Source: Siphonodentalium dalli
Taxonomy: Eukaryota; Mollusca; Scaphopoda; Gadilida; Siphonodentaliidae
Length of the DNA stretch: 64,000 nucleotides
Assembly: GCA_032622095.1 (NCBI GenBank)
Contig: CP136064.1
Coordinates: 191,983,948-192,047,947 of the forward strand
Reading direction: 5' to 3'
The translations under genes and the position numbers were made by a program. The notes under the pieces were generated by a model. It was given only the letters and a program-made list of their open reading frames with translations. It made no database searches and was not told the origin of the DNA. Positions 1 through 32,720 of the stretch are shown here, in pieces. Each line of letters opens with the position of its first letter. Position 1 is the first letter of the stretch.

Positions 1-185
1 AGGGCGCATTCGACATAAACCTGCTTCCAACACCCACCGCTATCGACTTTCTACAGAATCAAGACTCCAACTGCAGCCTGGGACCATTCTCTGTTGACTA
101 CACAAATTCTTATATCCGCCAGAATCCCAGTGGACTGTTTGATCATCTACCGATCATGCCCCTCCATTCTACAGCACTGATCTGA
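1..185 (+). CDS. T-box transcription factor copy A, 3' end of last exon (partial)
   Basis: These are the last 61 codons and the TGA stop (183-185) of a T-box gene whose remainder lies left of the window. The translation matches the C-terminal end of copies B to E (for example GAFDINLLPTPTAIDFL and the terminal LHSTALI). This part is outside the DNA-binding domain, so the family is assigned only through identity with the complete copies downstream. Whether copy A is intact cannot be told from here. Its 3' UTR follows, with a polyadenylation signal near 443. Confidence 0.93.
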   Translation, partial: GAFDINLLPTPTAIDFLQNQDSNCSLGPFSVDYTNSYIRQNPSGLFDHLPIMPLHSTALI

Positions 186-442
186 AAGTGAAACCTGCTA
201 TTGATTTCTAGGACAACCTAGATCATGACCACTCATTGTGCTTTTTTCTTGTGCTATACCTCAAACTTACAATGTGTTGCTACTGGCATTTAATGTATAT
301 TATGTATAGTTGTCGCTCCATACATAGTATTTAAGTTGTTGTTGCGTTTTTATGTGCATATGAACTAGTCATGACATTAGTTGTTAATTTTGTTGAGATA
401 TATAGTATTTTACGTGAATCCAATATGTATTAAATATGTATG

Positions 443-448
443 AATAAA
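443..448 (+). promoter_or_regulatory. Polyadenylation signal AATAAA, copy A
   Basis: AATAAA about 258 nt after the copy A stop codon. The same hexamer occurs at the matching place in every copy: 6498-6503 (B), 15098-15103 (C), 23784-23789 (D) and 32494-32499 (E). Conservation of position supports a roughly 280-nt 3' UTR. Confidence 0.7.
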
Positions 449-1227
449 CAAATTTCGATCAAGAATTTCTTTAATCAACACAATCCTTTTGAGGGTTTCT
501 CCCACTTGGTACGCGGGATTCATGTCATTTTCAGGCGGTACGCATGATTCATACCGCACTGTCAATCTTACAGGATGCACATCCCTTCTTTAATGGTAGT
601 CCGTATTCAATTAAAAGTCTGGTACGAGACTTTGGTGGCGATAAATTGTTATTTTGATGGCTAGAATGGTATTACGTCCATTTATTTTTGTATTTTTTCT
701 CTTCTAGTTTTAGCGAAAGTGTTTGTGGGTTTTTATTTAAATTTATTAACGTATCATTACTTCCGCTCTATTTACTTCAAGCTTTATATCCGATCTGGAC
801 CTTCATTACGAAAAATCTTATTTTGGTACACATGTACATCTTATCAGATTAGCATATATTAACACCTATTTCCTTGTCCTGTTTGAAAAAAAAACCAATC
901 AGGATAATCAGGGTAATTTAAGTTTTCTCCTTTTATTTTGCGTCTCTTACTTATATATTTTAATCTGTGCAGGTATGAGACCTGACCTTTATATGAACTT
1001 ATGAACCATGTAAATATCTCGAATCTGCACATATACTCTCCTATGATGGAGGCAAACAAACATAATCACTTAAGGGGTATGGTGAGTCCCGAGGTGTCCC
1101 TTTAATGTTTTTTTGTAGTTGTAGTTGCTGAGCGAACCGTGTGGTGCGCTGAAATGAGGAACGGGGCCCGTGTAATAATGTTAAAATGGTTTTAGTTGTG
1201 TTAGTTATGTCAGACTGCCTTGCAATC

Positions 1228-1630
1228 AGGGAGTGTTTTGGACGGGTCAAATCGTGAACCGACCTAACCTTGACCTTTAAAATGGTCAATTCAAGGTCAA
1301 ATCGCGCCTTTTGACGGGATTTCGACGAAATTTGATACCTAGGGGTACTTTTGTCCGGGAGTGTTTTGGACGGGTCAAGACGTGACCCCGATCTGACATT
1401 GACCTTCAAAATGGTCAATTTAAGGTCAAATCGCGCCTTTAGACGGGATTTCGACGAAATTTGAAACCTTGGGATACTTTGGTCCGGGGAGAGTTTTGGA
1501 CGGGTCAAATCGTGACCCCGACCTGACCTTGACCTTTAAACTGGTTAATTCAAGGTCAAATCGCGCCTTTTGACGGGATTTCGACGAAATTTGATACCTA
1601 GGGATACTTTTTTCCGGGGAGTGTTTTGGA
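1228..1630. repeat. 130-bp minisatellite, unit B (about three copies)
   Basis: Tandem repeat with a period of about 130 bp. Each copy begins near GAGTGTTTTGGACGGGTCAA (near 1229, 1360, 1490, with a last partial at 1620). Each copy contains TGACCTTGACC and, a short spacer later, TTCAAGGTCAAATCGCGCC, so a TCAAGGTCA-type sequence appears in both orientations. Open frames running through this stretch (repeated SKTLPD-like peptides) are a by-product of the period and not genes. Confidence 0.85.
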
Positions 1631-1639
1631 CTGCTAGTA

Positions 1640-2320
1640 GTATAAATAAGAAATTTATATTGTTTGTCACTCCATTGGCACATTTTTGTGTTTTTGTTTT
1701 GGTAGTTGAGTTTGAATTTTCAGTATGCTCAACACACTAACAGATTCAATGTGAAATCCACAAATTAACCAAACCCCTCTCACGTGAGTCTGATATTACA
1801 GCATTCTCTCAGGTCACCAGTACTGTTCAACACTGCCGATACGACCCAAAACGCCCCTTATATAGGTGACAAAGACAGGCGTGTCATTGTATCCCGCGGG
1901 TGTCGGTGATGAACTTTAGCACGTGTTGTTCACGTTATATTATGTTATATTTTGTTAATTTCTATCCATGGGTCCGGGTGGGCTTATATAGGCTTGCATG
2001 TTGCCTGGATCCGGTGCGATATCAAAGTGCTGCACAACTAAACTATTAAACAGAAATATCTTAATAGTTTTGTAGTTATCTGATTTGTATACAAAATTTT
2101 ATTAAGATTATGCACATGCAGGTCTTGTTCGAATTTGGGTCCGTTCCGATAAGTTTATGGAATTATGTCTCTTTTAGACTTAGAATTTGCTGATTATTTT
2201 GGTGTTCGGATGATAACTTTAGTTATAATTGTCTGACATTTATATAGCCCGTTCCGTACTAATTTATACAAACTCAGCTAATTTTATTTTATGAAATATG
2301 TCTGCAGTTTGGATATTATT
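1640..2320. other. 5' flank of copy B, no gene seen
   Basis: This stretch matches the upstream flank of the other units (for example 7575-8261 in unit C) with scattered substitutions. I see no coding exon. It ends at the deletion junction near 2318-2321, so the normal further 2.7 kb of flank, exon 1, intron 1 and the first part of exon 2 are absent from this unit. Confidence 0.6.
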
Positions 2321-3392
2321 GGATCTATGGGATAGATTCAACACGATAGGTACAGAGATGATTGTGACCAAACCAGGAAGGTTCGTATTTGTTTGTGTTT
2401 TGTTTTTGGGCAATCCTTGCATGGCAATATTAGAATAATATAGAATAATATTAGAATAATTGTTGTCTGATTTCGTAGACGTTCCAACATTTTACCATCT
2501 AGTAAAACGCAAAAGACCATGCGTGTGTGTGAGAAGCTGTTTATCACATAACCATGTGCACAATTAACTCTTGTAAATTTATAGATAATCTATGTATATA
2601 TTAAATCAAGTACAAACTTTCTGCAACTTTTATTGATGTTTTTAATACTTGGAGGTCAGTAATCAATATGTATGTATTACCGTCGGTGTATCGATATATA
2701 CACTATATAATTCCGCCTTATTTTAGAACGAACCCGTCGATTTTGCCTGTCCTGAAAATTTGAGTTATTTTGTTTTTCCTGACGAATGTTCCCCTTCGTG
2801 AAAGTGAGCTGTCAGAAGCTATCACAAAAGGCCAAATATGTCGTCTTAGCTGACGTCACCCCAGCCGACAACTGCAGATATAAATACCAGAACACCAGCT
2901 GGACTGTGACCGGAAAGGGCGAGCCACATACATCAGCCAGAATGTACGTTCACCCGGACTCCCCGGCTCCGGGATCATTCTGGATGAAGAAACCCATCTC
3001 CTTCAACAAAATGAAGATTACTAACAACCCAAACGACAAAAAAGGCCATGTAAGTTAACTTCATGGCACATAGGACAATTCAATCTCGATTCATAGCCGC
3101 TATGCATGTATACGTGTGACCGATGTATCTCAATTAGATGTTATCGTACATCCAGTATTTTTTTTTATTTACGGCTTTATTATGTATGTTATCTTCAAAA
3201 GATGATCGTCACAATATTCTGAATGAGCTTGTAGGCATATGTTTGAGTCAGCATGTGTTATATAGTCATTATACATTGAAAATAACTGGACGTATTCTAC
3301 ATCACAGTACCTTCAATGATATATCAAGATTTGCGAAGTGTTTTCAAAGTGGCTAATTAACATATTTTTGTTGTGAATATACTTAAGAAATG

Positions 3393-3520
3393 AATGTAGT
3401 TGGTGTGTTATTATGGGACACGGCGCTGTGGTCGTTTGTGGAACATTGTATCATAAACCGAGAAGCTTAATGTGCCACAATGACCACAACGCCGTATCCC
3501 CCAATAATACACACTACATT
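3393..3520. repeat. 128-bp foldback in intron 3 (copy B)
   Basis: Imperfect inverted repeat. The left arm begins AATGTAGTTGGTGTGTTATT and the right arm ends AATAATACACACTACATT. Inside are GGCGCTGTGGTCG and its near-complement CGACCACAACGCCG-like text, with a central loop of about 40 nt. It looks like a MITE or a structured intronic element. It is present at the same place in all units, so it predates the array. Confidence 0.75.
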
Positions 3521-3812
3521 CTTTTTATATTTATGTAGATTTTAAATTATTTATTCCCATAAAAAGCTGAATGTAATCTTATTTATTTTCACAAAATCTG
3601 CCGATACAATACATTAAGTCAGTCCAATATAAGATTAGCTACGATAACGTGATCGATCGATATAAATAACTGGCTTCAGATCCAATTCGGCTGACCTTTT
3701 AAAAGCAGGCCCAATTTTTCTGCTGACCGCGTTCATTGATTAGTTCAGATTAGGTCAACAGTGTGTAACTTCCTGTTCGTGATACACTCTTCGAATTATT
3801 GGGATGTAAACC

Positions 3813-3875
3813 GGGTGACCCAATTGGCAGTTGACCAATAACCAAACATGATTTAGTTTAACACATACGGGCTAT
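3813..3875. repeat. Short dispersed-repeat segment in intron 3
   Basis: The text GGTGACCCAATTGGCAGTTGACCAATAACC resembles the end of the dispersed repeat found upstream of the T-box genes (8219-8470) and again at 44667-44935. It is shared by all copies (12437, 21125 and 29811 regions). Confidence 0.5.
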
Positions 3876-6497
3876 TTAAATATATACAATTGAACACAGG
3901 CATGTGTGCCCATAATTTGTCATGCAAACATATTTTGAATGATGTATTATTTCCCCTAAACATGCCATCATATTCATATCCTAACTATTGTGTTTCTCTG
4001 TCCACAGATCATCCTGAACACGATGCAGAAGTACCAGCTGCGCGTCCACATCGTTAGAGCCAACGACACAAGTTCACTCAATTGGGGAAAGTTCAAGACA
4101 TCAAGCTTCAACGAGACAAAGTTCATAGCAGTTACTGCCTATCAAAGTGAAGAGGTAAGAACTTTTATCAGCTCCCTTTAACATAAGTTCATGTTCACCA
4201 ACTGACGTGTTATATAACTAGAACTTCAGAAGATTTTGTCTTGGGTGGTTAAAACACAAAGTCACTTGAAAGTTGCATTGAAAGTATTTCACAAGTACAG
4301 GCTAAAGGCTGTCAGTAATAACATTTTTTTTTTATCTAAATAAACAAAAATCTTTATTTGAAGTAAATAGCAGACCAAGCTTCAATATCTCCGAAAATAC
4401 TTGATTTTACATGGCGCTTTGCTTAACCAGATTTGTGTTCATTATGCTATCTATTATTTTCAGTGTACCAAGTTGAAGGTTGACAATAATCCGTTCGCAA
4501 AGGGCTTCAGGGATAACAGAAGGTAAGTCTGAAATAATTCTAAAATTTTGAATATGGGAGAATATATAGTGGGTACGATTTTCCAAATTGCTTCTTTTCG
4601 CTCTGTAATAAAAAGTCTCGTTTGATTTTGTAATATAAAATAAAAAATATGAAGTTATGTTTCCCAATTATGATGGGTTGAGTAAGTTTGAAAACGACCA
4701 GTGAATGGTTCATTGGATCCTTGCATGGTAACTCTAACATCATAATAGTATGCACGCAGTTGGATGCAGGATATATTAGTTCACTCAAGACCGCAATATC
4801 GGGCAAATATGACATTTAATCGTTTTCTCTTTCTTCACAGGACATGCTTCGGAGGAAAGCGACCATCACTTGATGACAAAGAAAACCAGTTCCTTCCAGG
4901 TAAGTTGAGATGTTATCAAATTATATAGATTCGCAATATCGTTACACCATGTTTGTTAATTTTACAAACATATTACAAGTGTTTCAGTTTCAATAATACC
5001 ACGATTTGCTTAATATTACCACACATACTTACTTGTAAATACCACATCAAATTCGAGGAAACAATCAGATATTAGTTCTCATGTATTAGTCGCTCTTAAC
5101 TTGAATATAATTTATGAAGACAACATTTATCACGTAACATACCGACCGTCAATGAATTGACCAGATTCCGGCATTGATACAGTATCTATCAATTTGCTCT
5201 CACTTTGATCTATTTTGCACAACTTAGAAGCAATTGCGAAGGTTTTAACTGTTAGAAAGATTATTTGATTTATATTTAAAAAAACGACTGTAAATTTCTT
5301 AACTTTCTCAGTGATTGAAACCATTTTGTACCCCGCATGCAAACATGTAACATAAAAACACATAACATGAAAACATTTCTACTTGCAGGAGTTTATCCGG
5401 AAGCAAAGCGTCAGCGAATTGAACCACAGATCTCATCACCAGAACTTCGGATTCTGAAAGATCAAGACGAGATGTGCCCAAAATACGTAACTGACCACAC
5501 CCACAGCTTCACAACAGAGTCTCGTGCCGATGGTGCTGTCTGCTCCCCAGATTCGAACGATTTCTCCACCAACCATTCGCCTTCGTCGGTTGAAACATAC
5601 GCGAGTGAATACGCAGAAAAAACACCATCTCCTCGCAACGTATCACCGTCTACTGACTCATTGAAATACACCAACTACAACTACAACAGTGTATCTGAAA
5701 GATCGTCACATAGCAACGAATTACTCATCGCTCCAACAACAACCGTGTCGCATCGCAACCAAACCAGGCAGCTAGAAGTGTCCACACCACATCAGAACCA
5801 ACTGTATGAACAACTTGTGGCTGGATTCGGCATTCCATCGATAGCTTCATTATCACCACCCCAGGGTATTCCGAGAGCAGTAGACAATACGAATTCCTTT
5901 GACTTTAAGCCAACGGTGTTCAACTTCATGGGGTCTTCGCCAACACAAAACCAACCCTTCATATGCGATCCACTGAATCTATCAACAAAGAGCGAGTCGA
6001 CCAACCTGCAGGCTGCCTCGAGTGATGTCTTATCGCCACCCAAGATGCCAAAACAGGGCGCATTCGACATAAACCTGCTTCCAACACCCACCGCTATCGA
6101 CTTTCTACAGAATCAAGACTCCAACTGCAGCCTGGGACCATTCTCTGTTGACTACACAAATTCTTATATCCGCCAGAATCCCAGTGGACTGTTTGATCAT
6201 CTACCGATCATGCCCCTCCATTCTACAGCACTGATCTGAAAGTGAAACCTGCTATTGATTTCTAGGACAACCTAGTTCATGACCACTCATTGTGCTTTTT
6301 TTCTTGTGCTATACCTCAAACTTACAATGTGTTGCTACTGGCATTTAATGTATATTATCTATAGTTGTCGCTCCATACATAGTATTTAAGTTGTTGTTGC
6401 GTTTTTATGTGCATATGAACTAGTCATGACATTAGTTGTTAATTTTGTTGAGATATATAGTATTTTACGTGAATCCAATATGTATTAAATATGTATG

Positions 6498-6503
6498 AAT
6501 AAA
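6498..6503 (+). promoter_or_regulatory. Polyadenylation signal AATAAA, copy B
   Basis: Same position relative to the stop codon as in the other copies. Confidence 0.6.
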
Positions 6504-7292
6504 CAAATTTCGATCAAGAATTTCTTTAATCAACACAATCCTTTTGAGGGTTTTTCCCCCTTGGTACGCGGGATTCGTGTCATTTTCAGGCGGTACGCAT
6601 GATTCATACCCCACTGTCAATCTTACAGGATGCACACCCCTTATGTAATGGTAGTCCGTATTCAATTAAAAGTCTGGTACGAGACTTTGGTGGCGATAAA
6701 TTGTTATTTTGATGGCTAGAATGGTATTACGTCCATTTATTTTTGTATTTTTTCTCTTCTCGTTTTAGCGAAAGTGTTTGTGGGTTTTTTTTTAAATTTA
6801 TTAACGTATCATTACTTCCGCTCTATTTACTTCAAGCTTTTTATCCGATCTGGACCTTCCTTACGAAAAATCTAATTTTGGTACACATGCACATCTTATC
6901 AGATTAGCATATATTAACACCTATTTCCTTGTCCTGTTTGAAAAAAAAACAATCAGGATAATCAGGGTAATTTACTAAGTTTTCTCCTTTTATTTTGCGT
7001 CTCTTACTTATATATTTTAATCTGTACAGGTATGATACCTGACCTTTATATGAACTTATGAACCATGTAAATATCTCGAATCTGCACATATACTCTCCTA
7101 TGATGGAGGCAAACAAACATAATCACTTAAGGGGTATGGGGAGTCCCGAGGTGTCCCTTTAATGTTTTTTGTAGTTTGTAGTTGTAGTTGCTGAGCGAAT
7201 CGTGTGGTGCGCTGAAATGAGGAACGGGGCCCGTGTAATAATGTTAAAATGGTTTTAGTTGTGTTAGTTATGTCAGACTGCCTTGCAATCAG

Positions 7293-8470: not shown

Positions 8471-8516
8471 CATATGAGAATGACTATACGATATCCTTCA
8501 TATCTGTGTGTTTGTG

Positions 8517-8770: not shown

Positions 8771-10130
8771 TTTTAGAAAAAATATACTCACTGCCGATGA
8801 CAATCGAGCACGAAGCCTTGAATGACACACATAACGGTATAAATAATACCATATAGCTATTACAGAATCATATGCAATTTACATTCATCCAAGTACCTAA
8901 TCCATAATTATTTCCGAAATTAAAGGTATGTAAAACATCTTGTAAAATTCCATTGCCGTTCCATTCCATTCCAAATCGCCGAGTATTTAAAGACTTCAAT
9001 CTTATTTTAAAGATATTTAAATATAAATTCGCCATAACGCGAACTACCATATATATCACGCAATAATGATGCTTTAATAACTGAAAAAGAAAAAAAAACG
9101 ACTAATAACCACTATGACCAACAGATGTCGAAACATTTTTTTAAACATATTCTTAAACGAACTCTTCACGCACAGAAAGACTGATTCGAGTGCTCGAATT
9201 CAGAAAGCTTGTTAGTTTCTTCGGCATGCAACAATAAAGAGAGTTCCTTGTTAATTTATTGATGATATTGCAGAAATAAAAAGCGTTTTTCACTTCTACT
9301 CAAGTATTTTTCTGAGCATATGAAGCCCGAATATAAATATTTCGTGTATTGATAAACCTATGTTATGTCTCCTTCCAAATTACGTAGACAACATTTGGAA
9401 GTTTGAACGAGCTATGTCCGTTTAAACCAAATCACACAAAACTCACAAAGAGAGGAGGCAAAAGTCTGGATAAAATATATCGAATTGAGATAAATGTTGA
9501 GTTTTTATGAGTTCATCACTGTTCAGCTGATGAGTAATCAGAAACATGTAACAACATACATGCAATGATAACAAGGGATCCATAGAGCATGTTAGACAAA
9601 CAATGGTCAAAATGTATTGCTACCAACTAAACATCAGCCCCGCCAAAGAACATCAGACAACGCAGTAACAACACTCGCACGTTGAGATGAGGCATACTCA
9701 ACCATGACTAATTATGAGCATAAAGCTGGTCTTTTTCGTTAAATAGGAGTGTTCGTCGTGGCAGAGCATTTCATTCTCTCAACTGATAACCTGAGTAATA
9801 TCTCTTCAGGATTGTATACAGCTTTATATCAGGTAACTCTTACACAGAATTCACTTTGTGACCAGACAATATGAGTTTTCAAAACCATTCACGAATTTTT
9901 TTTATCACAACCCGTTACTCTGAAATGAAGTAATGGTTGGTTCTCTTGCACGATTGATAAACCAAATTCAACAGTGCATATTTGAATTGCACACAGTAAA
10001 ATAACATGCATGCCATTTTCTGCCAGTCATGCTCTCGCGTTAACTTAAACTTTTCGACTACATACCAAAATTATTTTGATAATAAATAATTTGCGCGATA
10101 ATTTTTAATGTACCCATGTTTTACTTCCAG
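8771..10130. other. 5' flank or first intron of T-box copy C
   Basis: About 1.4 kb with no supported coding exon; equivalents are 17471-18820 (D) and 26157-27506 (E). The first coding exon starts right after a strong acceptor (TTTTACTTCCAG), so an upstream exon, probably non-coding, should lie in or before this stretch. A small candidate between CTCTTCAG and GTAACT at about 9811-9833 is too weak to call. No clear promoter can be assigned. Confidence 0.4.
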
Positions 10131-10144
10131 ATTGCCACATACCT

Positions 10145-13100
10145 ATGATCAGCAACACCATGTATGGGTACGGTGCGCAGGCAGTGCCTTACCACGGCAC
10201 ACAAGGGTATACTTTGCCCACGAACCTTTCTCCGTCCAGCTTCCAGATGGCCAACCTGCACATGTATCCTGTTGCAATGCCAACACAAGCATCATTCTGT
10301 GGTATGTCATAATGAAAAGGATATAATTATATGCTGTAGTGATAGTGTTGACTAAAATCGTCTTTGAATTTTACCTGCAACGGATGAATTTGATGTCATG
10401 CTATATACGAGGAAATGCTACAAATATATATCGACAATAGTTGTAACACGCGATACAAATATGGTTCATATTTTTACACATACTAATTGTGCTTTTGATG
10501 CGATGTTGTCTATCGGAAGATCTTTCCAGACTATAACATCATTATACTCGGATATTACAAAACTATTTGAAATGCTAGATTTAAATTAACCATTGATTGC
10601 TTTATGTTCAAAACAGTTTAACGCCAAAACTGTTCTTATCATTCTTTCAACCAAATTAATATATTTCGACACGAAGAGCTCCCTTCGCCGCCGTTAGTTC
10701 TTCTGTATTATAGCATTGTGCAATTTGAGGACATACATTTAATCTATTCTATCTCTTCCAAATAAAACACTGTTTTTTGCTAAAACTTGATGTCTTTATG
10801 TTTCAATTTAAGATATGAAGAACACAGTTAGTCACGTAAAGATGCCACATATTCAGACAACGTTTCCTCCAGTTAGCTCTACACCGCCCGCGATCGCAGC
10901 ACCATCAGAAGATGACCACGTGACAATCACTTTAGACAACAAGGATCTATGGGATAGATTCAACACGATAGGCACAGAGATGATTGTGACCAAACCAGGA
11001 AGGTTCGTATTTGTTTGTGTTTTGTTTTTGGGCAATCCTTGCATGGCAATATTAGAATAATATAGAATAATATTAGAATAATTGTTGTCTGAATTCGTAG
11101 ACGTTCCAACATTTTACCATCTAGTAAAACGCAAAAGACCATGCGTGTGTGTGAGAAGCTGTTTATCACATAACCATGTGCACCATTAACTCTTGTAAAT
11201 TTATAGATAATCTATGTATATATTAAATCAAGTACAAACTTTCTGCAACTTTTATTGATGCTTTTAATACTTGGAGGTCAGTAATCAATATGTATGTATT
11301 ACCGTCGGTGTATCGATATATACACTGTATAATTCCGCCTTATTTTAGAACGAACCCGTCGATTTTGCCTGTCCTGAAAATTTGTGTTATTTTTTTTCTT
11401 CAGACGAATGTTCCCCTTCGTGAAAGTGAGCTGTCAGAAGCTATCACAAAAGGCCAAATATGTCGTCTTAGCTGACGTCACCCCAGCCGACAACTGCAGA
11501 TATAAATACCAGAACACCAGCTGGACTGTGACCGGAAAGGGCGAGCCACATACATCAGCCAGAATGTACGTTCACCCGGACTCCCCGGCTCCGGGATCAT
11601 TCTGGATGAAGAAACCCATCTCCTTCAACAAAATGAAGATTACTAACAACCCAAACGACAAAAAAGGCCATGTAAGTTAATTTCATTGGCACATAGGACA
11701 ATTAACTCTCGATTCATAGCCGATATGCATGTATACGTGTGGCCGATGTATCTCAATTAGATGTTATCGTACATCCAGTATGTTTTTTTATTTACGGCTT
11801 TATTATGTATGTTATCTTCAAAAGATTATCGTCACAATATTCTGAATGAGCTTGTAGGCATATGTTTGAGTCAGCATGTGTTATATAGTCATTATACATT
11901 GAAAATAACTGGACGTATTCTACATCACAGTACCTTCAATGATATATCAAGATTTGCGAAGTGTTTTCAAAGTGGCTAATTAACATATTTTTGTTGTGAA
12001 TATACTTAAGAAATGAATGTAGTTGGTGTGTTATTATGGGATACGGCGCTGTGGTCGTTTGTGGAACATTGTATCATAAACCGAGAAGCTTAATGTGCCA
12101 CAATGACCACAACGCTGTATCCCCCAATAACACACACTACATTTTTTTTTATATTTATGTAGATTTTAAATTATTTATTCCCATAAAAAGCTGAATGTAA
12201 TCTTATTTATTTTCACAAAATCTGCCGATACAATACATTAAGTCAGTCCAATATAAGATTAGCTACGATAACGTGATCGATCGATATAAATAACTGGCTT
12301 CAGATCCAATTCGGCTGACCTTTTAAAAGCAGGCCCAATTTTTCTGCTGACTGCGTTCATTGATTAGTTCAGATTAGGTCAACAGTGTGTAACTTCCTGT
12401 TCGTGATACACTCTTCGAATTATTGGGATGTAAACCGGGTGACCCAATTGGCAGTTGACCAATAACCAAACATGATTTAGTTTAACACATACGGGCTATT
12501 TAAATATATACAATTGAACACAGGCATGTGTGCCCATAATTTGTCATGCAAACATATTTTGAATCATGTATTATTTCCACTAAACATGCCATCATATTCA
12601 TATCCTAACTATTGTGTTTCTCTGTCCACAGATCATCCTGAACACGATGCAGACGTACCAGCTGCGCGTCCACATCGTTAGAGCCAACGACACAAGTTCA
12701 CTCAATTGGGGAAAGTTCAAGACATCAAGCTTCAACGAGACAAAGTTCATAGCAGTTACTGCCTATCAAAGTGAAGAGGTAAGAACTTTTATCAGCTCCC
12801 TTTAACATAAGTTCATGTTCACCAACTGACGTGTTATATAACTAGAACTTCAGAAGATTTTGTCTTGGGTGGTTAAAACACAAAGTCACTTGAAAGTTGC
12901 ATTGAAAGTATTTCACAAGTACAGGCTAAAGACTGTCAGTAATAACCTTGTTTTTTTTTTATCTAAATAAACAAAAATCTTTATTTGAAGTAAATAGCAG
13001 ACCAAGCTTCAATATCTCCGAAAATACTTGATTTTACATGGCGCTTTGCTTAACCAGATTTGTGCTCATTATGCTATCTATTATTTTCAGTGTACCAAGT

Positions 13101-14865
13101 TGAAGGTTGACAATAATCCGTTCGCAAAGGGCTTCAGGGATAACAGAAGGTAAGTCTGAAATAATTCTTAAATTCTGAATATGGGAGAATATATAGTGGG
13201 TACGATTTTCCAAATTGATTCTTTTCGCTCTGTAATAAACAATCTCGTATGATTTTGTAATATAAAATAAAAAAGATGAAGTTATGTTTCCCAATTATGA
13301 TGGGTTGTGTAAGTTTGAAAACGACCAGTGAATGGTTCATTGGATTCTTGCATGGTAACCCTAACATCATAATAGTATGCACGCAGATGGATGCAGGATA
13401 TATTAGTTCACTCAAGACCGCAATATCGGGCAAATATGACATTGAATCGTTTTCTCTTTCTTCACAGGACATGCTTCGGAGGAAAGCGACCATCACTTGA
13501 TGACAAAGAAAACCAGTTCCTTCCAGGTAATTGAGATGTTATCAAATTATATAGATTCGCAATATCGTTACACCATGTTTGTTAATTTTACAAACATATT
13601 ACAAGTGTTTCAGTTTCAATAATACCACGATTTGCTTAATATTACCACACATACTTACTTGTAAATACCACATCAAATTCGAGGAAACAATCAGATATTA
13701 GTTCTCATGTATTAGTCGCTCTTAACTTGAATATAATTTATGAAGACAACATTTATCACGTAACATACCGACCGTCAATGAATTGACCAGATTCCAGCAT
13801 TGGTACAGTATCTATCAATTTGCTCTCACTTTGAACTATTTTGCACAACTTAGAAGCAATTGCGAAGGTTTTAACTGTTAGAAAGATTATTTGATTTATA
13901 TTTAAAAAAACGACTGTAAATTTCTTAACTTTCTCAGTGATTGAAACCATTTTGTACCCCACATGCAAACATGTAACATAAAAACACATAACATGAAAAC
14001 ATTTCTACTTGCAGGAGTTTATCCGGAAGCAAAGCGTCAGCGAATTGAACCACATATCTCATCACCAGAACTTCGGATTCTGAAAGATCAAGACGAGATG
14101 TGCCCAAAATACGTCACTGACCACACCCACAGCTTCACAACAGAGTCTCGTGCCGATGGTGCTGTCTGCTCCCCAGATTCGAACGATTTCTCCACCAACC
14201 ATTCGTCTTCGTCGGTTGAAACATACGCGAGTGAATACGCAGAAAAGACACCATCTCCTCGCAACGTATCACCGTCTACTGACTCATTGAAATACACCAA
14301 CTACAACTACAACAGTGTATCTGAAAGATCGTCACATAGCAACGAATTACTCATCGCTCCAACAACAACCGTGTCGCATCGCAACCAAACCATGAAGCCA
14401 GAAGTGTCCACACCACCTCAGAACCAACTGTATGAACAACTTGTGGCTGGATTCGGCATTCCATCGATAGCTTCATTGTCATCACCCCAGGGTATTCCGA
14501 GAGCAGTAGACAATACGAATTCCTTTGACTTTAAGCCAACGGTGTTCAACTTCATGGGGTCTTCGCCAACACAAAGCCAACCCTTCATATGCGATCCACT
14601 GAATCTATCAACAAAGAGCGAGTCGACCAATCTGCAGGCTGCCTCGAGTGATGTCTTATCGCCACCCAAGATGCCAAAACAGGGCGCATTCGACATAAAC
14701 CTGCTTCCAACACCCACCGCTATCGACTTTCTACAGAATCAAGACTCCAACTGCAGCCTGGGACCATTCTCTGTTGACTACACAAATTCTTATATCCGCC
14801 AGAATCCCAGTGGACTGTTTGATCATCTACCGATCATGCCCCTCCATTCTACAGCACTGATCTGA
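10145..14865 (+). CDS. T-box transcription factor, copy C (complete, 7 coding exons)
   Basis: Exons: 10131-10301 (ATG at 10145), 10813-11002, 11404-11671, 12632-12778, 13091-13149, 13468-13526 and 14015-14865. All introns are GT-AG and the joined frame is open for 576 residues. Residues 1-92 form a Tyr/Gln/Met/Pro-rich leader. Residues about 93-274 form the T-box: LWDRF, GTEMIVTKPGRRMFP, YVHPDSPAPG, FIAVTAYQ and NNPFAKGFRDN are the family signatures for a nuclear, sequence-specific DNA-binding protein. A basic AKRQR lies near residue 300. The 280-residue tail is Ser/Thr/Asn-rich and holds PLNLS near 488-492, a possible CtBP-binding motif. The start is the first ATG of the exon; 14 nt of open in-frame sequence precede it, so coding could extend into an unseen upstream exon. 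The T-box subfamily is unresolved; it is not a typical Brachyury and is nearer to Tbx6/VegT-like or other divergent invertebrate T-box proteins by memory of motifs. Copy-specific changes include MQTYQ in exon 4, where the other copies have MQKYQ. Confidence 0.92.
12016..12143. repeat. 128-bp foldback in intron 3 (copy C)
   Basis: Same element and position as 3393-3520. Confidence 0.7.
12951..12961. repeat. Poly-T tract at the left edge of the 8686-bp duplication
   Basis: Intron 4 poly-T run. Left of it copy C differs from copy D (for example exon 4). Right of it copies C and D are essentially identical for the rest of the unit. It marks one recombination breakpoint; the equivalent tracts are near 21634-21646 and 30321-30332. 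Confidence 0.6.
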
Positions 14866-15097: not shown

Positions 15098-15103
15098 AAT
15101 AAA
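15098..15103 (+). promoter_or_regulatory. Polyadenylation signal AATAAA, copy C
   Basis: Conserved position after the stop codon. The copy C and D 3' UTRs lack about 26 bp (ending CTCAAACTTACAATG...) present in A, B and E, a shared derived deletion. Confidence 0.6.
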
Positions 15104-18834: not shown

Positions 18835-21800
18835 ATGATCAGCAACACCATGTATGGGTACGGTGCGCAGGCAGTGCCTTACCACGGCACACAAGGGTAT
18901 ACTTTGCCAACGAACCTTTCTCCGTCCAGCTTCCAGATGGCCAACCTGCACATGTATCCTGTTGCAATGCCAACACAAGCATCATTCTGTGGTATGTCAT
19001 AATGAAAAGGATATAATTATATGCTGTAGTGATAGTGTTGACTAAAATCGTCTTTGAATTTTACCTGCAACGGATGAATTTGATGTCATGCAATATACGA
19101 GGAAATGCTACAAATATATATCGACAATAGTTGTAACACGCGATACAAATATGGTTCACGATAATTACACATACTAATTGTGCTTTTGATGCGATGTTGT
19201 CTATCGGAAGATCTTTCCAGACTATAACATCATTATACTTGGATATTACAAAACTATTTGAAATGCTAGATTTAAATTAACCATTGATTGCTTTAGGTTC
19301 AAAACAGTTTAACGCCGAAACTGTTCTTATCATTCTTTCAACCAAATTAATATATTTCGACACGAAGAGCTCCCTTCGCCGCCGTTAGTCCTTCTGTATT
19401 ATAGCATTGTGCAATTTGAGGACATACATTTAACCTATTCTATCTCTTCGAAATAAAACACTGTTTTTTGCTAAAACTTTATGTTTCAATTTAAGATATG
19501 AAGAACACAGTTAGTCACGTAAAGATGCCACATATTCAGACAACGTTTCCTCCAGTTAGCTCTACACCGCCCGCGATCGCAGCACCATCAGAAGATGACC
19601 ACGTGACAATCACTTTAGACAACAAGGATATATGGGATAGATTCAACACGATAGGCACAGAGATGATTGTGACCAAACCAGGAAGGTTCGTATTTGTTTG
19701 TGTTTTGTTTTTGGGCAATCCTTGCATGGCAATATTAGAATAATATAGAATAATATTAGAATAATTGTTGTCTGAGTTCGTAGACGTTCCAACATTTTAC
19801 CATCTAGTAAAACGCAAATGACCATGCGTGTGTGTGAGAAGCTGTTTATCACATAACCATGTGCACCATTAACTCTTGTAAATTTATAGATAATCTATGT
19901 ATATATTAAATCAAGTACAAACTTTCTGCAACTTTTATTGATGCTTTTAATACTTGGAGGTCAGTAATCAATATGTATGTATTACCGTCGGTGTATCGAT
20001 ATATATATACACTGTATAATTCCGCCTTATTTTAGAACGAACCCGTCGATTTTGCCTGTCCTGAAAATTTGTGTTATTTTTTTTCTTCAGACGAATGTTC
20101 CCCTTCGTGAAAGTGAGCTGTCAGAAGCTATCACAAAAGGCCAAATATGTCGTCTTAGCTGACGTCACCCCAGCCGACAACTGCAGATATAAATACCAGA
20201 ACACCAGCTGGACTGTGACCGGAAAGGGCGAGCCACATACATCAGCCAGAATGTACGTTCACCCGGACTCCCCGGCTCCGGGATCATTCTGGATGAAGAA
20301 ACCCATCTCCTTCAACAAAATGAAGATTACTAACAACCCAAACGACAAAAAAGGCCATGTAAGTTAATTTCATTGGCACATAGGACAATTAACTCTCGAT
20401 TCATAGCCGATATGCATGTATACGTGTGGCCGATGTATCTCAATTAGATGTTATCGTACATCCAGTATGTTTTTTTATTTACGGCTTTATTATGTATGTT
20501 ATCTTCAAAAGATGATCGTCACAATATTCTGAATGAGCTTGTAGGCATATGTTTGAGTCAGCATGTGTTATATAGTCATTATACATTGAAAATAACTGGG
20601 CGTATTCTACATCACAGTACCTTCAATGATATATCAAGATTTGCGAAGTGTTTTCAAAGTGGCTAATTAACATATTTTTGTTGTGAATATACTTAAGAAA
20701 TGAATGTAGTTGGTGTGTTATTGTGGGATACGGCGCTGTGGTCGTTTGTGGAACATTGTATCATAAACCGAGAAGCTTAATGTGCCACAATGACCACAAC
20801 GCCGTATCCCCCAATAACACACACTACATTTTTTTTTATATTTATGTAGATTTTAAATTATTTATTCCCATAAAAAGCTGAATGTAATCTTATTTATTTT
20901 CACAAAATCTGCCGATACAATACATTAAGTCAGTCCAATATAAGATTAGCTACGATAACGTGATCGATCGATATAAATAACTGGCTTCAGATCCAATTCG
21001 GCTGACCTTTTAAAAGCAGGCCCAATTTTTCTGCTGACCGCGTTCACTGATTAGTTCAGATTAGGTCAACAGTGTGTAACTTCCTGTTCGTGATACACTC
21101 TTCGAATTATTGGGATGTAAACCGGGTGACCCAATTGGCAGTTGACCAATAACCAAACATGATTTAGTTTAACACATACGGGCTATTTAAATATATACAA
21201 TTGAACACAGGCATGTGTGCCCATAATTTGTCATGCAAACATATTTTGAATCATGTATTATTTCCCCTAAACATGCCAACATATTCATATCCTAACTATT
21301 GTGTTTCTCTGTCCACAGATCATCCTGAACACGATGCAGAAGTACCAGCTGCGCGTCCACATCATTAGAGCCAACGACACAAGTTCACTCAATTGGGGAA
21401 AGTTCAAGACATCAAGCTTCAACGAGACAAAGTTCATAGCAGTTACTGCCTATCAAAGTGAAGAGGTAAGAACTTTTATCAGCTCCCTTTAACATAAGTT
21501 CATGTTCACCGACTGACGTGTTATATAACTAGAACTTCAGAAGATTTTGTCTTGGGTGGTTAAAACACAAAGTCATTTGAAAGTTGCATTGAAAGTATTT
21601 CACAAGTACAGGCTAAAGACTGTCAGTAATAACCTTTTTTTTTTTTATCTAAATAAACAAAAATCTTTATTTGAAGTAAATAGCAGACCAAGCTTCAATA
21701 TCTCCGAAAATACTTGATTTTACATGGCGCTTTGCTTAACCAGATTTGTGCTCATTATGCTATCTATTATTTTCAGTGTACCAAGTTGAAGGTTGACAAT

Positions 21801-23551
21801 AATCCGTTCGCAAAGGGCTTCAGGGATAACAGAAGGTAAGTCTGAAATAATTCTTAAATTCTGAATATGGGAGAATATATAGTGGGTACGATTTTCCAAA
21901 TTGATTCTTTTCGCTCTGTAATAAACAATCTCGTATGATTTTGTAATATAAAATAAAAAAGATGAAGTTATGTTTCCCAATTATGATGGGTTGTGTAAGT
22001 TTGAAAACGACCAGTGAATGGTTCATTGGATTCTTGCATGGTAACCCTAACATCATAATAGTATGCACGCAGATGGATGCAGGATATATTAGTTCACTCA
22101 AGACCGCAATATCGGGCAAATATGACATTGAATCGTTTTCTCTTTCTTCACAGGACATGCTTCGGAGGAAAGCGACCATCACTTGATGACAAAGAAAACC
22201 AGTTCCTTCCAGGTAATTGAGATGTTATCAAATTATATAGATTCGCAATATCGTTACACCATGTTTGTTAATTTTACAAACATATTACAAGTGTTTCAGT
22301 TTCAATAATACCACGATTTGCTTAATATTACCACACATACTTACTTGTAAATACCACATCAAATTCGAGGAAACAATCAGATATTAGTTCTCATGTATTA
22401 GTCGCTCTTAACTTGAATATAATTTATGAAGACAACATTTATCACGTAACATACCGACCGTCAATGAATTGACCAGATTCCAGCATTGGTACAGTATCTA
22501 TCAATTTGCTCTCACTTTGAACTATTTTGCACAACTTAGAAGCAATTGCGAAGGTTTTAACTGTTAGAAAGATTATTTGATTTATATTTAAAAAAACGAC
22601 TGTAAATTTCTTAACTTTCTCAGTGATTGAAACCATTTTGTACCCCACATGCAAACATGTAACATAAAAACACATAACATGAAAACATTTCTACTTGCAG
22701 GAGTTTATCCGGAAGCAAAGCGTCAGCGAATTGAACCACATATCTCATCACCAGAACTTCGGATTCTGAAAGATCAAGACGAGATGTGCCCAAAATACGT
22801 CACTGACCACACCCACAGCTTCACAACAGAGTCTCGTGCCGATGGTGCTGTCTGCTCCCCAGATTCGAACGATTTCTCCACCAACCATTCGTCTTCGTCG
22901 GTTGAAACATACGCGAGTGAATACGCAGAAAAGACACCATCTCCTCGCAACGTATCACCGTCTACTGACTCATTGAAATACACCAACTACAACTACAACA
23001 GTGTATCTGAAAGATCGTCACATAGCAACGAATTACTCATCGCTCCAACAACAACCGTGTCGCATCGCAACCAAACCATGAAGCCAGAAGTGTCCACACC
23101 ACCTCAGAACCAACTGTATGAACAACTTGTGGCTGGATTCGGCATTCCATCGATAGCTTCATTGTCATCACCCCAGGGTATTCCGAGAGCAGTAGACAAT
23201 ACGAATTCCTTTGACTTTAAGCCAACGGTGTTCAACTTCATGGGGTCTTCGCCAACACAAAGCCAACCCTTCATATGCGATCCACTGAATCTATCAACAA
23301 AGAGCGAGTCGACCAATCTGCAGGCTGCCTCGAGTGATGTCTTATCGCCACCCAAGATGCCAAAACAGGGCGCATTCGACATAAACCTGCTTCCAACACC
23401 CACCGCTATCGACTTTCTACAGAATCAAGACTCCAACTGCAGCCTGGGACCATTCTCTGTTGACTACACAAATTCTTATATCCGCCAGAATCCCAGTGGA
23501 CTGTTTGATCATCTACCGATCATGCCCCTCCATTCTACAGCACTGATCTGA
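18835..23551 (+). CDS. T-box transcription factor, copy D (complete, 7 coding exons)
   Basis: Exons: 18821-18991 (ATG at 18835), 19496-19685, 20091-20358, 21319-21465, 21777-21835, 22154-22212 and 22701-23551. Splice sites, phases and length (576 residues) are the same as in copy C. Compared with C, exon 2 has DNKDIWD for DNKDLWD and exon 4 has MQKYQ and HIIRA. Exons 5-7 encode the same protein as C. Exons 1-4 are the same as in copy E. The gene is therefore a mosaic with the switch in intron 4, at the duplication breakpoint, and is probably the product of an unequal crossover. All T-box signature motifs are kept, so it should be functional if transcribed. Polyadenylation signal at 23784-23789. 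Confidence 0.92.
20703..20830. repeat. 128-bp foldback in intron 3 (copy D)
   Basis: Same element and position as 3393-3520. Confidence 0.7.
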
Positions 23552-25856: not shown

Positions 25857-25895
25857 ATTGTCATATGAGAATGACTATACGATATCCTTCATATC

Positions 25896-26156: not shown

Positions 26157-27520
26157 GAGTTTTAGAAAAAATATACTCACTGCCGATGACAATCGAGCAC
26201 GAAGCCTTGAATGACACACATAACGGTATAAATAATACCACATAGCTATTACAGAATCATATGCAATTTACATTCATCCAAGTACCTAATCCATAATTAT
26301 TTCCGAAATTAAAGGTATGTAAAACATCTTGTAAAATTCCATTGCCGTTCCATTCCATTCCAAATCGCCGAGTATTTAAAGACTTCAATCTTATTTTAAA
26401 GATATTTAAATATAAATTCGCCATAACGCGAACTACCATATATGTCACGCAATAATGATGCTTTAATAACTGAAAAAGAAGAAAAAAACGACTAATAACC
26501 ACAATGACCAACAGATGTCGAAACATTTTTTTAAACATATTCTTAAACGAACTCTTCACGCACAGAAAGACTGATTCGAGTGCTCGAATTCAGAAAGCTT
26601 GTTAGTTTCTTCGGCATGCAACAATAAAGAGAGTTCCTTGTTAATTTATTGATGATATTGCAGAAATAAAGAGCGTTTTTCACTTCTACTCCAGTATTTT
26701 TCTGAGCATATGAAGCCCGAATATAAATATTTCGTGTATTGATAAACCTATGTTATGTCTCCTTCCAAATTACGTAGACAACATTTGGAAGTTTGAACGA
26801 GCTATGTCCGTTTAAACCAAATCACACCAAACTCACAAAGAAAGGAGGCAAAAGTCTGGATAAAATATATCGAAGTGAGATAAATGTTGAGTTTTTATGA
26901 GTTCATCACTGTTCAGCTGATGAGTAATCAGAAACATGTAACAACATACATGCAGTGATAACAAGGGATCCATAGAGCATGTTAGACAAACAATGGTCAA
27001 AATGTATTGCTACCAACTAAACATCAGCCCCGCCAAAGAACATCAGACAACGCAGTAACAACACTCGCACGTTGAGATAAGGCATACTCAACCATGACTA
27101 ATTATGAGCATAAAGCTGGTCTTTTTCGTTAAATAGGAGTGTTCGTCGTGGCAGAGCATTTCATTCTCTCAACTGATAACCTGAGTAATATCTCTTCAGG
27201 ATTTTATACAGCTTTATATCAGGTAACTCTTACACAGAATTCACTTTGTGACCAGACAATATGAGTTTTCAAAACCATTCACGAATTTTTTTAATCACAA
27301 CCCGTTACTCTGAAATGAAGTAATGGTTGGTTCTCTTGCACGATTGATAAACCAAATTTGAAGTGCACACAGTAAAACAACATGCATGCCATTTTCTGCC
27401 AGTCATGCTCTCGCGTTAACTTAAACTTTTCGACTACATATCAAAATTATTTTGATAATAAATAATTTGCGCGATAATTTTTAATGTACCCATGTTTTAC
27501 TTCCAGATTGCCACATAACT

Positions 27521-30500
27521 ATGATCAGCAACACCATGTATGGGTACGGTGCGCAGGCAGTGCCTTACCACGGCACACAAGGGTATACTTTGCCAACGAA
27601 CCTTTCTCCGTCCAGCTTCCAGATGGCCAACCTGCACATGTATCCTGTTGCAATGCCAACACAAGCATCATTCTGTGGTATGTCATAATGAAAAGGATAT
27701 AATTATATGCTGTAGTGATAGTGTTGACTAAAATCGTCTTTGAATTTTACCTGCAACGGATGAATTTGATGTCATGCAATATACGAGGAAATGCTACAAA
27801 TATATATCGACAATAGTTGTAACACGCGATACAAATATGGTTCACGATAATTACACATACTAATTGTGCTTTTGATGCGATGTTGTCTATCGGAAGATCT
27901 TTCCAGACTATAACATCATTATACTTGGATATTACAAAACTATTTGAAATGCTAGATTTAAATTAACCATTGATTGCTTTAGGTTCAAAACAGTTTAACG
28001 CCGAAACTGTTCTTATCATTCTTTCAACCAAATTAATATATTTCGACACGAAGAGCTCCCTTCGCCGCCGTTAGTCCTTCTGTATTATAGCATTGTGCAA
28101 TTTGAGGACATACATTTAACCTATTCTATCTCTTCGAAATAAAACACTGTTTTTTGCTAAAACTTTATGTTTCAATTTAAGATATGAAGAACACAGTTAG
28201 TCACGTAAAGATGCCACATATTCAGACAACGTTTCCTCCAGTTAGCTCTACACCGCCCGCGATCGCAGCACCATCAGAAGATGACCACGTGACAATCACT
28301 TTAGACAACAAGGATATATGGGATAGATTCAACACGATAGGCACAGAGATGATTGTGACCAAACCAGGAAGGTTCGTATTTGTTTGTGTTTTGTTTTTGG
28401 GCAATCCTTGCATGGCAATATTAGAATAATATAGAATAATATTAGAATAATTGTTGTCTGAGTTCGTAGACGTTCCAACATTTTACCATCTAGTAAAACG
28501 CAAATGACCATGCGTGTGTGTGAGAAGCTGTTTATCACATAACCATGTGCACCATTAACTCTTGTAAATTTATAGATAATCTATGTATATATTAAATCAA
28601 GTACAAACTTTCTGCAACTTTTATTGATGCTTTTAATACTTGGAGGTCAGTAATCAATATGTATGTATTACCGTCGGTGTATCGATATATATATACACTG
28701 TATAATTCCGCCTTATTTTAGAACGAACCCGTCGATTTTGCCTGTCCTGAAAATTTGTGTTATTTTTTTTCTTCAGACGAATGTTCCCCTTCGTGAAAGT
28801 GAGCTGTCAGAAGCTATCACAAAAGGCCAAATATGTCGTCTTAGCTGACGTCACCCCAGCCGACAACTGCAGATATAAATACCAGAACACCAGCTGGACT
28901 GTGACCGGAAAGGGCGAGCCACATACATCAGCCAGAATGTACGTTCACCCGGACTCCCCGGCTCCGGGATCATTCTGGATGAAGAAACCCATCTCCTTCA
29001 ACAAAATGAAGATTACTAACAACCCAAACGACAAAAAAGGCCATGTAAGTTAATTTCATTGGCACATAGGACAATTAACTCTCGATTCATAGCCGATATG
29101 CATGTATACGTGTGGCCGATGTATCTCAATTAGATGTTATCGTACATCCAGTATGTTTTTTTATTTACGGCTTTATTATGTATGTTATCTTCAAAAGATG
29201 ATCGTCACAATATTCTGAATGAGCTTGTAGGCATATGTTTGAGTCAGCATGTGTTATATAGTCATTATACATTGAAAATAACTGGGCGTATTCTACATCA
29301 CAGTACCTTCAATGATATATCAAGATTTGCGAAGTGTTTTCAAAGTGGCTAATTAACATATTTTTGTTGTGAATATACTTAAGAAATGAATGTAGTTGGT
29401 GTGTTATTGTGGGATACGGCGCTGTGGTCGTTTGTGGAACATTGTATCATAAACCGAGAAGCTTAATGTGCCACAATGACCACAACGCCGTATCCCCCAA
29501 TAACACACACTACATTTTTTTTTATATTTATGTAGATTTTAAATTATTTATTCCCATAAAAAGCTGAATGTAATCTTATTTATTTTCACAAAATCTGCCG
29601 ATACAATACATTAAGTCAGTCCAATATAAGATTAGCTACGATAACGTGATCGATCGATATAAATAACTGGCTTCAGATCCAATTCGGCTGACCTTTTAAA
29701 AGCAGGCCCAATTTTTCTGCTGACCGCGTTCACTGATTAGTTCAGATTAGGTCAACAGTGTGTAACTTCCTGTTCGTGATACACTCTTCGAATTATTGGG
29801 ATGTAAACCGGGTGACCCAATTGGCAGTTGACCAATAACCAAACATGATTTAGTTTAACACATACGGGCTATTTAAATATATACAATTGAACACAGGCAT
29901 GTGTGCCCATAATTTGTCATGCAAACATATTTTGAATCATGTATTATTTCCCCTAAACATGCCAACATATTCATATCCTAACTATTGTGTTTCTCTGTCC
30001 ACAGATCATCCTGAACACGATGCAGAAGTACCAGCTGCGCGTCCACATCATTAGAGCCAACGACACAAGTTCACTCAATTGGGGAAAGTTCAAGACATCA
30101 AGCTTCAACGAGACAAAGTTCATAGCAGTTACTGCCTATCAAAGTGAAGAGGTAAGAACTTTTATCAGCTCCCTTTAACATAAGTTCATGTTCACCGACT
30201 GACGTGTTATATAACTAGAACTTCAGAAGATTTTGTCTTGGGTGGTTAAAACACAAAGTCATTTGAAAGTTGCATTGAAAGTATTTCACAAGTACAGGCT
30301 AAAGACTGTCAGTAATAACCTTTTTTTTTTTTATCTAAATAAACAAAAATCTTTATTTGAAGTAAATAGCAGACCAAGCTTCAATATCTCCGAAAATACT
30401 TGATTTGACATGGCGCTTTGCTTAACCAGATTTGTGCTCATTATGCTATCTATTATTTTCAGTGTACCAAGTTGAAGGTTGACAATAATCCGTTCGCAAA

Positions 30501-32236
30501 GGGCTTCAGGGATAACAGAAGGTAAGTCTGAAATAATTCTTAAATTCTGAATATGGGAGAATATATAGTGGGTACGATTTTCCAAATTGCTTCTTTTCGC
30601 TTTGTAATAAACAATCTCGTATGATTTTGTAATATAAAATAAAAAAGATGAAGTTATGTTTCCCAATTATGATGGGTTGAGTAAGTTTGAAAACGACCAG
30701 TGAATGGTTCATTGGATCCTTGCATGGTAATCCTAACATCATAACAGTATGCACGCAGATGGATGCAGGATATATTAGTTCACGCAAGACCGCAATATCG
30801 GGCAAATATGACATTTAATCGTTTTCGCTTTCTTCACAGGACATGCTTCGGAGGAAAGCGACCATCACTTGATGACAAAGAAAACCAGTTCCTTCCAGGT
30901 AATTGAGATGTTATCAAATTATATAGATTCGCAATATCGTTACACCATGTTTGTTAATTTTACAAACATATTACAAGTGTTTCAGTTTCATTAATACCAC
31001 GATTTGCTTAATATTACCACACATACTTACTTGTAAATACCACATCAAATTAGAGGAAACAATCAGATATTAGTTCTCATGTATTAGTCGCTCTTAACTT
31101 GAATATAATTTATGAAGACAACATTTATCATGTAACATACCGACCGTCAATGAATTGACCAGATTCCAGCATTGATACAGTATCTATCAATTTGCTCTCA
31201 CTTTGAACTATTTTGCACAACTTAGAAGCAATTGCGAAGGTTTTAACTGTTAGAAAGATTATTTGATTTATATTTTAAAAAACGACTGTAAATTTCTTAA
31301 CTTTCTCAGTAATTGAAATTTTGTTTGCCCCACATGCAAACATGTAACATAAAAACACATAACATGAAAACATTTCTACTTGCAGGAGTTTATCCGGAAC
31401 CAAAGCGTCAGCGAATTGAACCACAGATTTCATCACCAGAACTTCGGATTCTGAAAGATCAAGACGAGATGTGCCCAAAATACGTCACTGACCACACCCA
31501 CAGCTTCACAACAGAGTCTCGTGCCGATGGTGCTGTCTACTCCCCAGATTCGAGCGATTTCTCCACCAACCATTCACCTTCGTCGGTTGAAACATACGCG
31601 AGTGAATACGCGGAAAAGACACCATCTCCCCGCAACGTATCACCGTCTACTGACTCATTGAAATACACCAACTACAACTACAACAGTGTATATGAAAGGT
31701 CGTCACCTAGCAACGAATTACTCATCGCTCCAACAACAACCGTGTCGCATCGCAACCAAACCATGAAGCCAGAAGTGTCCACACCACCTCAGAACCAACT
31801 GTATGAACAACTTGTGGCTGGATTCGGCATTCCATCGATAGCTTCATTATCACCACCCCAGGGTATTCCGAGAGCAGTAGACAATACGAATTCCTTTGAC
31901 TTTAAGCCAACGGTGTTCAACTTCATGGGGTCTTCGCCAACACAAAACCAACCCTTCATATGCGATCCACTGAATCTATCAACAAAGAGTGAGTCGACCA
32001 ATCTGCAGGCTGCCTCGAGTGATGTCTTATCGCCACACAAGATGCCAAAACAGGGCGCATTCGACATAAACCTGCTTCCAACACCCACCGCTATCGACTT
32101 TCTACAGAATCAAGACTCCAACTGCAGCCTGGGACCATTCTCTGTTGACTACACAAATTCTTATATCCGCCAGAATCCCAGTGGACTGTTTGATCATCTA
32201 CCGATCATGCCCCTCCATTCTACAGCACTGATCTGA
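27521..32236 (+). CDS. T-box transcription factor, copy E (complete, last in array)
   Basis: Exons: 27507-27677 (ATG at 27521), 28182-28371, 28777-29044, 30005-30151, 30463-30521, 30840-30898 and 31386-32236; 576 residues, with all GT-AG splice sites intact. Exons 1-4 match copy D. Exon 7 differs from D at about ten residues, for example GVYPEPK for GVYPEAK, VYSPDSSDF for VCSPDSNDF, SVYERSSPS for SVSERSSHS and SPHKM for SPPKM. The T-box domain and the PLNLS motif are unchanged, so the divergence is in the disordered tail. This is the rightmost gene of the array; unit homology ends at 32720, 484 bp past the stop. Polyadenylation signal at 32494-32499. Confidence 0.92.
29389..29516. repeat. 128-bp foldback in intron 3 (copy E)
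   Basis: Same element and position as 3393-3520. Confidence 0.7.
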
Positions 32237-32493
32237 AAGTGAAACCTGCTATTGATTTCTAGGACAACCTAGTTCATGACCACTCATTGTGCTTTTTTCT
32301 TGTGCTATACTTCAAACTTACAATGTGTTGCTACTGGCATTTAATGTATATTATCTATAGTTGTCGCTCCATACATAGTATTTAAGTTGTTGTTGCGTTT
32401 TTATGTGCATATGAACTAGTCATGACATTAGTTGTTAATTTTGTTGAGACATATAGTATTTTACGTGAATCCAATATGTATTAAATATGTATG

Positions 32494-32499
32494 AATAAA
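32494..32499 (+). promoter_or_regulatory. Polyadenylation signal AATAAA, copy E
   Basis: Conserved position after the stop codon. Confidence 0.6.
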
Positions 32500-32720
32500 C
32501 AAATTTCGATCAAGAATTTCATTAATCAACACAATCCTTTTGAGGGTTTCTCCCCCTTGGTACGCGGGATTCATGTCATTTTCAGTCGGTACGCATGATT
32601 CATACCCGACTGTCAATCTTACATGATGCACACCCCTTCTTTAATGGTAGTCCGTATTCAATTAAAAGTCTGGTACGCGACTTTGGTGGCGATAAATTGT
32701 TATTTTGATGGCTAGAATGG

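Follow-up and report, generated by a model that had tools for sequence, protein, structure and literature searches.

An array of 29 lineage-specific T-box genes that appears to be homogenised and to lose copies around an intact core under purifying selection

The genome analysed here (an assembly of 2.23 Gb in nine contigs) contains 29 copies of a T-box gene within ~460 kb (C4:191.56-192.02 Mb), and the reading we favour, with a probability of roughly 0.7, is that this array of lineage-specific genes is being homogenised and is losing copies, with an intact core held under purifying selection. The copies of this array (array A) occur in both orientations, and its right end lies in the 64,000-bp stretch of DNA under study (the window, G000:C4:191983948-192047947), which holds three complete genes (W3-W5), one 5'-truncated pseudogene (W2) and, from a fifth copy (L025), the end of the last exon. 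The count is made up of 28 copies found by a protein search with exon 3 and one copy without exon 3 that was detected by its other exons (L020); the existence of array A is surer than the exact number of its near-identical copies. An earlier note on this DNA had proposed at least five head-to-tail T-box copies within 33 kb, three of them complete, in an array that runs off the left edge and whose true copy number is higher. Five head-to-tail units, with a match to PF00907, are indeed present at window 1-32720, the number of complete genes was exact (start codons at 10145, 18835 and 27521, seven coding exons, GT-AG introns and open 576-codon frames), and extension of the contig leftward to 29 copies makes ‘at least five’ an understatement for the genome.

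The T-box of the unit gene is encoded by exons 2-5, which are present and in order in W3-W5 (Table 1). Exon 3 alone matched PF00907 at an E value of 1.6e-31 (110 bits; curated cut-off, 26), and the best PDB sequence matches were to TBX3 (114.5 bits), TBX5 (106.6 bits) and a Brachyury (T) protein (87.4 bits). Self-comparison of the window revealed a main period of 8,686 bp, with unit pairs 95-99% identical and with introns and flanks co-duplicated, as the earlier note had also claimed. Window 1-2319 matches the 3' flank of one unit and homology resumes in mid-exon 2 from 2321, with ~2.65 kb lost relative to other units. W2 is thus missing the start, all of exon 1, most of exon 2 and the promoter block, and as its exon-3 acceptor also reads TG, it is considered a pseudogene. 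When six open reading frames of window 1-32720 were compared with Pfam for other genes within the repeat unit, no match was obtained at E 0.01. A search with the last exon at E 0.001 gave matches confined to array A (36 matches; 42 of 42 candidates scored), and a T-box gene at 222.24 Mb (L069) bears a distant likeness to it (22.6% identity).

Table 1. Coordinates of features in the window (E1-E7, coding exons)
Feature	Position	Strand	Basis or remark
L025 copy, end of E7 (last exon) with stop	1-185	+	gene complete left of window
Deletion junction between one unit's 3' flank and mid-E2 of the following unit	2319-2321		unit comparison
W2, 5'-truncated T-box copy	2321-6239	+	exon mapping; no promoter block, no E1
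W2 exons	E2 end 2321-2380; E3 2782-3049; E4 4008-4154; E5 4464-4522; E6 4841-4899; E7 5389-6239		E3 acceptor TG
TTAAATAG at left end of W3 promoter-like block	9739-9746	+	read in sequence
Conserved promoter-like block, W3	9742-9797	+	56/56 identical to L009, L010, L012
Proposed end of non-coding exon 0, GT donor at 9833	9798-9840	+	inferred from conservation
W3, complete T-box gene, 576 aa	10145-14865	+	exons, splice sites, frame
W3 exons	E1 10145-10301; E2 10813-11002; E3 11404-11671; E4 12632-12778; E5 13091-13149; E6 13468-13526; E7 14015-14865		
PLNLS motif in W3 E7, codons for DPLNLSTKS	14593-14619	+	read in sequence
W3 AATAAA, candidate polyadenylation signal	15098-15103	+	read in sequence
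W4, complete T-box gene	18835-23551	+	exons, splice sites, frame
W4 exons	E1 18835-18991; E2 19496-19685; E3 20091-20358; E4 21319-21465; E5 21777-21835; E6 22154-22212; E7 22701-23551		
W5, complete T-box gene	27521-32236	+	exons, splice sites, frame
W5 exons	E1 27521-27677; E2 28182-28371; E3 28777-29044; E4 30005-30151; E5 30463-30521; E6 30840-30898; E7 31386-32236		
Right end of array, unit homology stops	32720		self-comparison, unit comparison

To the right of the array, the window contains an open frame on the reverse strand (53938-54459) that includes an exon of carbonic anhydrase, as shown by a match to PF00194 (E 1.8e-15) and by carbonic anhydrase 4 as the best PDB match, plus an inverted repeat (52202-52823 and 53078-53728) with arms of ~620-650 bp that are 91% identical and ~255 bp apart, which may be a fold-back element.

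Across the genome there are ~66 T-box loci, 62 of them on contig C4 and 52 in two arrays. A PF00907 profile search returned at least 154 matches, with 150 of the 279 candidates scored, and two exon 3 protein searches in which all candidates were scored returned 66 (72/72) and 72 (76/76). The second array (array B, G000:C4:247175492-247726486) comprises 23 copies (L045-L067), again in both orientations and within the same wider clade, and four further T-box genes lie at 222.24-222.39 Mb, giving 56 loci in one clade (29 + 23 + 4). The other ten are conventional loci: five Tbx2/3-like, two Brachyury and one each of Tbx1, Tbx20 and Eomes/Tbr.

Several other features were observed during this inventory. 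The second exon 3 protein search gave six additional short matches with stops in array B. Beside an array B gene, the reverse strand of L070 (~1389-1820) has an open frame in which a YADD stretch resembling that of reverse transcriptases was spotted by eye; a decayed T-box fragment lies on the strand opposite to that frame. Two Tbx2/3-like loci, L027 and L028 (G000:C4:79.621 and 79.631 Mb), are 9.7 kb apart and identical over 2,501 bases, and represent either a very recent duplication or an assembly duplicate. A copy of mitochondrial cox1 that spans the whole PF00115 model (L071, G000:C1:108127492-108128832) lies inside a chromosome contig and is open under the invertebrate mitochondrial code, with AGA/AGG at Ser, ATA at Met and AAA at Lys positions; it is either a recent nuclear copy or an assembly join. 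Repeats of TTAGGG are abundant (1973 + 5394 matches of five repeats; 0 for a reversed-pattern control). Taken with the code used by the cox1 copy, they make a spiralian host probable.

The earlier note had suggested placing these genes among the known T-box families, and a tree (65 rows; L003 left out, L020 not included, identical rows merged) sets them in a clade apart from the conventional loci of the same genome; its references are all vertebrate, which limits family placement. Array A and the pair of genes at 222.24-222.25 Mb join at a support of 99/93 and array B, which has a long branch, then joins at 98/93, leaving L031 and L037 (222.33-222.39 Mb) outside this clade (99/93); a grouping of arrays A and B without the 222 Mb pair had an AU p value of 0.051. 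The genome's own Tbx2/3-like (99/99), Tbx1, Tbx20, Brachyury and Eomes loci group with their human namesakes. In the best tree the neighbour of the array clade is, weakly (35/0 and 38/70), Tbx6/VegT, one of the families named in the earlier note, together with MGA, and grouping with TBX6 and VegT to the exclusion of MGA had AU p values of 0.048 and 0.060. It is conceivable, although we consider it unlikely, that the arrays are instead fast-evolving duplicates of Tbx2/3 (or Tbx4/5) and not a clade of other or separate origin: TBX3 and TBX2 are the top single-exon matches among known T-boxes, and groupings with Tbx2/3, which are absent from the best tree (AU p 0.49 and 0.345), or with Tbx5 (0.28 and 0.13) were not rejected, but five of the genome's own loci (four distinct rows) join human TBX2 (support 99-100) and stay separate from the arrays, and the best tree, albeit weakly, places the array clade elsewhere.

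The core that the favoured reading proposes consists of 18 of the 29 array A copies that look intact by exons, splice sites and frame (L001, L002, L004, L005, L007, L009, L010, L013, L014, L015, L018, L022-L025 and W3-W5), with exon 2 of L004 assigned by eye and with eight copies (L004, L007, L009, L010, L013-L015 and L018) in which the sequence examined ends short of the stop codon and the matched part of the last exon contains no stop. The other 11 (L003, L006, L008, L011, L012, L016, L017, L019, L020, L021 and W2) are broken or incomplete; exon mapping of array A copies did not find exons 4-7 in L003. Selection was assessed by Nei-Gojobori dN/dS in the 300 pairs, which are not independent and are distorted by gene conversion, among 25 array A copies with exons 1-6, including L016 and L017, each with a stop in exon 1. 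Median dN/dS was 0.21 in 157 pairs at dS 0.1-0.3, 0.19 in 37 pairs at 0.3-0.6, 0.17 in 47 pairs at 0.6-1.2 and 0.32 in 28 pairs at 0.02-0.1. The 31 closest pairs (dS <0.02) had a pooled Nd/Sd of 3.3 and, in those for which it was defined, a median dN/dS of 0.54; constraint is thus barely visible, if at all, in the youngest copies. When 10 pairs were divided by part, dN/dS was 0.07-0.12 for the T-box taken together with the short tail in exon 6, 0.26-0.49 for the N-terminus and 0.27-0.54 for the C-terminus; with values of ~0.1 in the T-box and higher ones at the termini, the DNA-binding domain is therefore held and the tails drift.

In array B, where each copy was read over exons 3 and 4 and their surroundings (and the gene region of L070 more fully), both exons are open in 22 of 23 copies, the exception being L060. 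When 253 pairs were sorted by dS into four bins, exon-3 dN/dS was 0.29, 0.13, 0.07 and 0.11; where dS exceeded 0.05 it was 0.07-0.13. These values bear on the proposal that the amplification is real but largely neutral, the product of a recombination-prone locus whose extra copies are useless. Such a process would account for the broken copies of array A (11/29) and for the slight or absent constraint among its youngest pairs, and gene conversion could mask some decay; it is nonetheless distinctly improbable, given a T-box dN/dS of ~0.1 in diverged copies of both arrays and the persistence of frames and splice sites in 18/29 copies, even at dS ~0.6.

Evidence for turnover comes from the structure of the units, since W4 and W5 show no difference over about the first 4.5 kb of their comparison and diverge after it, whereas W3 and W4 are diverged over the first ~5 kb and almost identical beyond. 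Such mosaics of identical and diverged stretches point to recent unequal crossing-over or gene conversion and not to an assembly echo, and array A shows the traits expected of birth-and-death evolution with homogenisation: copies arranged head to tail and differing in age by degrees, identity in mosaic patches, and dead copies among them. An assembly artefact, in which false tandem copies were stitched from haplotypes or repeated reads, could produce the identical ~4.5 kb of W4 and W5 and near-identical copies such as L014 and L015, which differ by one mismatch in 5 kb, but is rejected as very improbable, because an echo would yield uniform identity, and the copies span dS 0.005 to 0.647 against W3, occur in both orientations, and show mosaic patterns and a distinct deletion junction.

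Upstream of exon 1, W3 carries a conserved block that may be a promoter. In the next intron, W3 is identical to L009, L010 and L012 at 222, 221 and 223 of 283 positions, and for L009 the difference between block (56/56) and intron (222/283) has a Fisher p of 1.1e-5, which is a guide only because the block borders were chosen after viewing the alignment. Comparison with L013 and L018 gave 49/52 in the block against 211/274 in the intron, and comparison with L007 and L008 gave 53/56 and 54/56 in the block and 280/288 and 282/290 in the intron, so that in the latter two the block is no better conserved. A genome search with the block returned 21 matches, all in array A (21/21 candidates scored); it is found close upstream in 13 of the 18 intact copies and in six broken ones, and the search gave no match for the intact copies L001, L002, L004, L005 and L023. 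Two block copies (G000:C4:191813863 and 191827909) are distant from any detected exon 1; one of them lies ~5 kb upstream of L011, a copy whose near upstream sequence has been replaced.

Two features of the encoded proteins are relevant to function. The PLNLS sequence in exon 7, which we take to be a motif of the CtBP-binding kind, is present in 20 of the 24 last exons that were aligned, and L001, L002, L004 and L005 lack it (L006, L008, L019 and L021 were dropped beforehand, and L003 is without a last exon). The stretch that forms the alpha-3/3-10 helix (VTAYQSEE...NPFAKGFR) is near-fixed in 25 array A copies, with 25 of 28 printed positions invariant and the others occupied by C/V/L (21/3/1), N/T (21/4) and K/R (24/1). 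Within it, the Asn of AYQN is replaced by Ser in all 27 array A rows that hold the stretch (the 28th, L003, is without the exon), in 23/23 array B rows and in both rows from 222.24-222.25 Mb, and is kept in 12 of 14 other rows from the same genome and in 10/10 reference sequences. As an excerpt of one study places T-box specificity in the alpha-3 and 3-10 helices (PMC4434323), the AYQS change may indicate a changed binding code.

The events that the sequence supports would be growth and homogenisation of array A by unequal crossing-over or gene conversion, and loss of copies through deletion and mutation, with purifying selection keeping the intact core. Because young-type units each have a similar promoter-like block, their copies would probably be expressed together; retention of the T-box and of the nearly invariant alpha-3/3-10 stretch suggests that their products probably bind T-box-like sites, which for this family resemble GGTGTG, and PLNLS, with its presumed recruitment of the co-repressor CtBP, in most younger copies makes repression probable. 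The earlier note had proposed that amplification reflects rapid turnover, lineage-specific use or a demand for dosage, for example in early-embryo patterning. Turnover and lineage specificity are upheld by the 29 and 23 copies, the mosaic units, the 11/29 broken copies and the separate clade; use of the array genes for dosage or in the early embryo is speculative. It can be speculated that the likeliest benefit would be rapid production of more of one regulator, or a division of expression among copies, at a lineage-specific developmental step. A bolder scenario, which we regard as doubtful, is that in a spiralian lineage one T-box founder gave rise to two AYQS arrays, of which the larger homogenises and co-fires from shared promoters as a set of early-development repressors, possibly with a changed DNA code; if true, it would be a T-box counterpart to multicopy, dose-driven gene batteries.

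Small tandem sets of Tbx6-type genes, such as Drosophila Dorsocross 1-3 and the Ciona Tbx6 copies, resemble these arrays in that a developmental regulator of the T-box family is repeated in tandem, but they comprise few copies as opposed to 29 and 23, and Tbx6 kinship is weakly supported here. Lineage-specific growth of developmental transcription factors is also known from the spiralian SPILE TALE genes, which are homeobox and not T-box genes. The same likeness and difference apply to the lepidopteran Shx expansion, described in the consulted excerpt as four homeobox genes in the Hox cluster with a link to extra-embryonic tissue (PMC4207634). Within the T-box family, the excerpted sources give 17 genes for human (PMC8608327) and 22 for C. 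elegans, 18 of them without one-to-one orthologues (PMC4434323). Going by the same excerpt, the nematode and the present case share lineage-specific family growth and altered residues, in DNA contacts of some nematode members and in the recognition helix here; they differ in that the present genome has ~66 loci, 56 of one clade and 52 in two dense arrays, with a T-box dN/dS of ~0.1, as well as near-identical neighbours and mosaic units in array A, and in that binding specificity was measured in the nematode, whereas a change of it is a possibility raised by sequence here. Among the matches listed in open-licence PMC full text (including PMC12021676 and PMC11310086), none, in the portions seen, describes a comparable T-box array, and the nearest precedent in print among them is the nematode expansion (PMC4434323). 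What is new, then, is that expansion of a transcription factor family, a known phenomenon, has occurred in a family that is usually small, and in homogenising arrays.

T-box genes are textbook examples of dosage-sensitive regulators of the body plan. A genome with ~66 T-box loci, 52 of which are in two arrays with constrained T-box exons, thus provides a natural test of what follows from amplification of such a regulator, for which the possible outcomes include dosage, division of labour and new DNA specificity.
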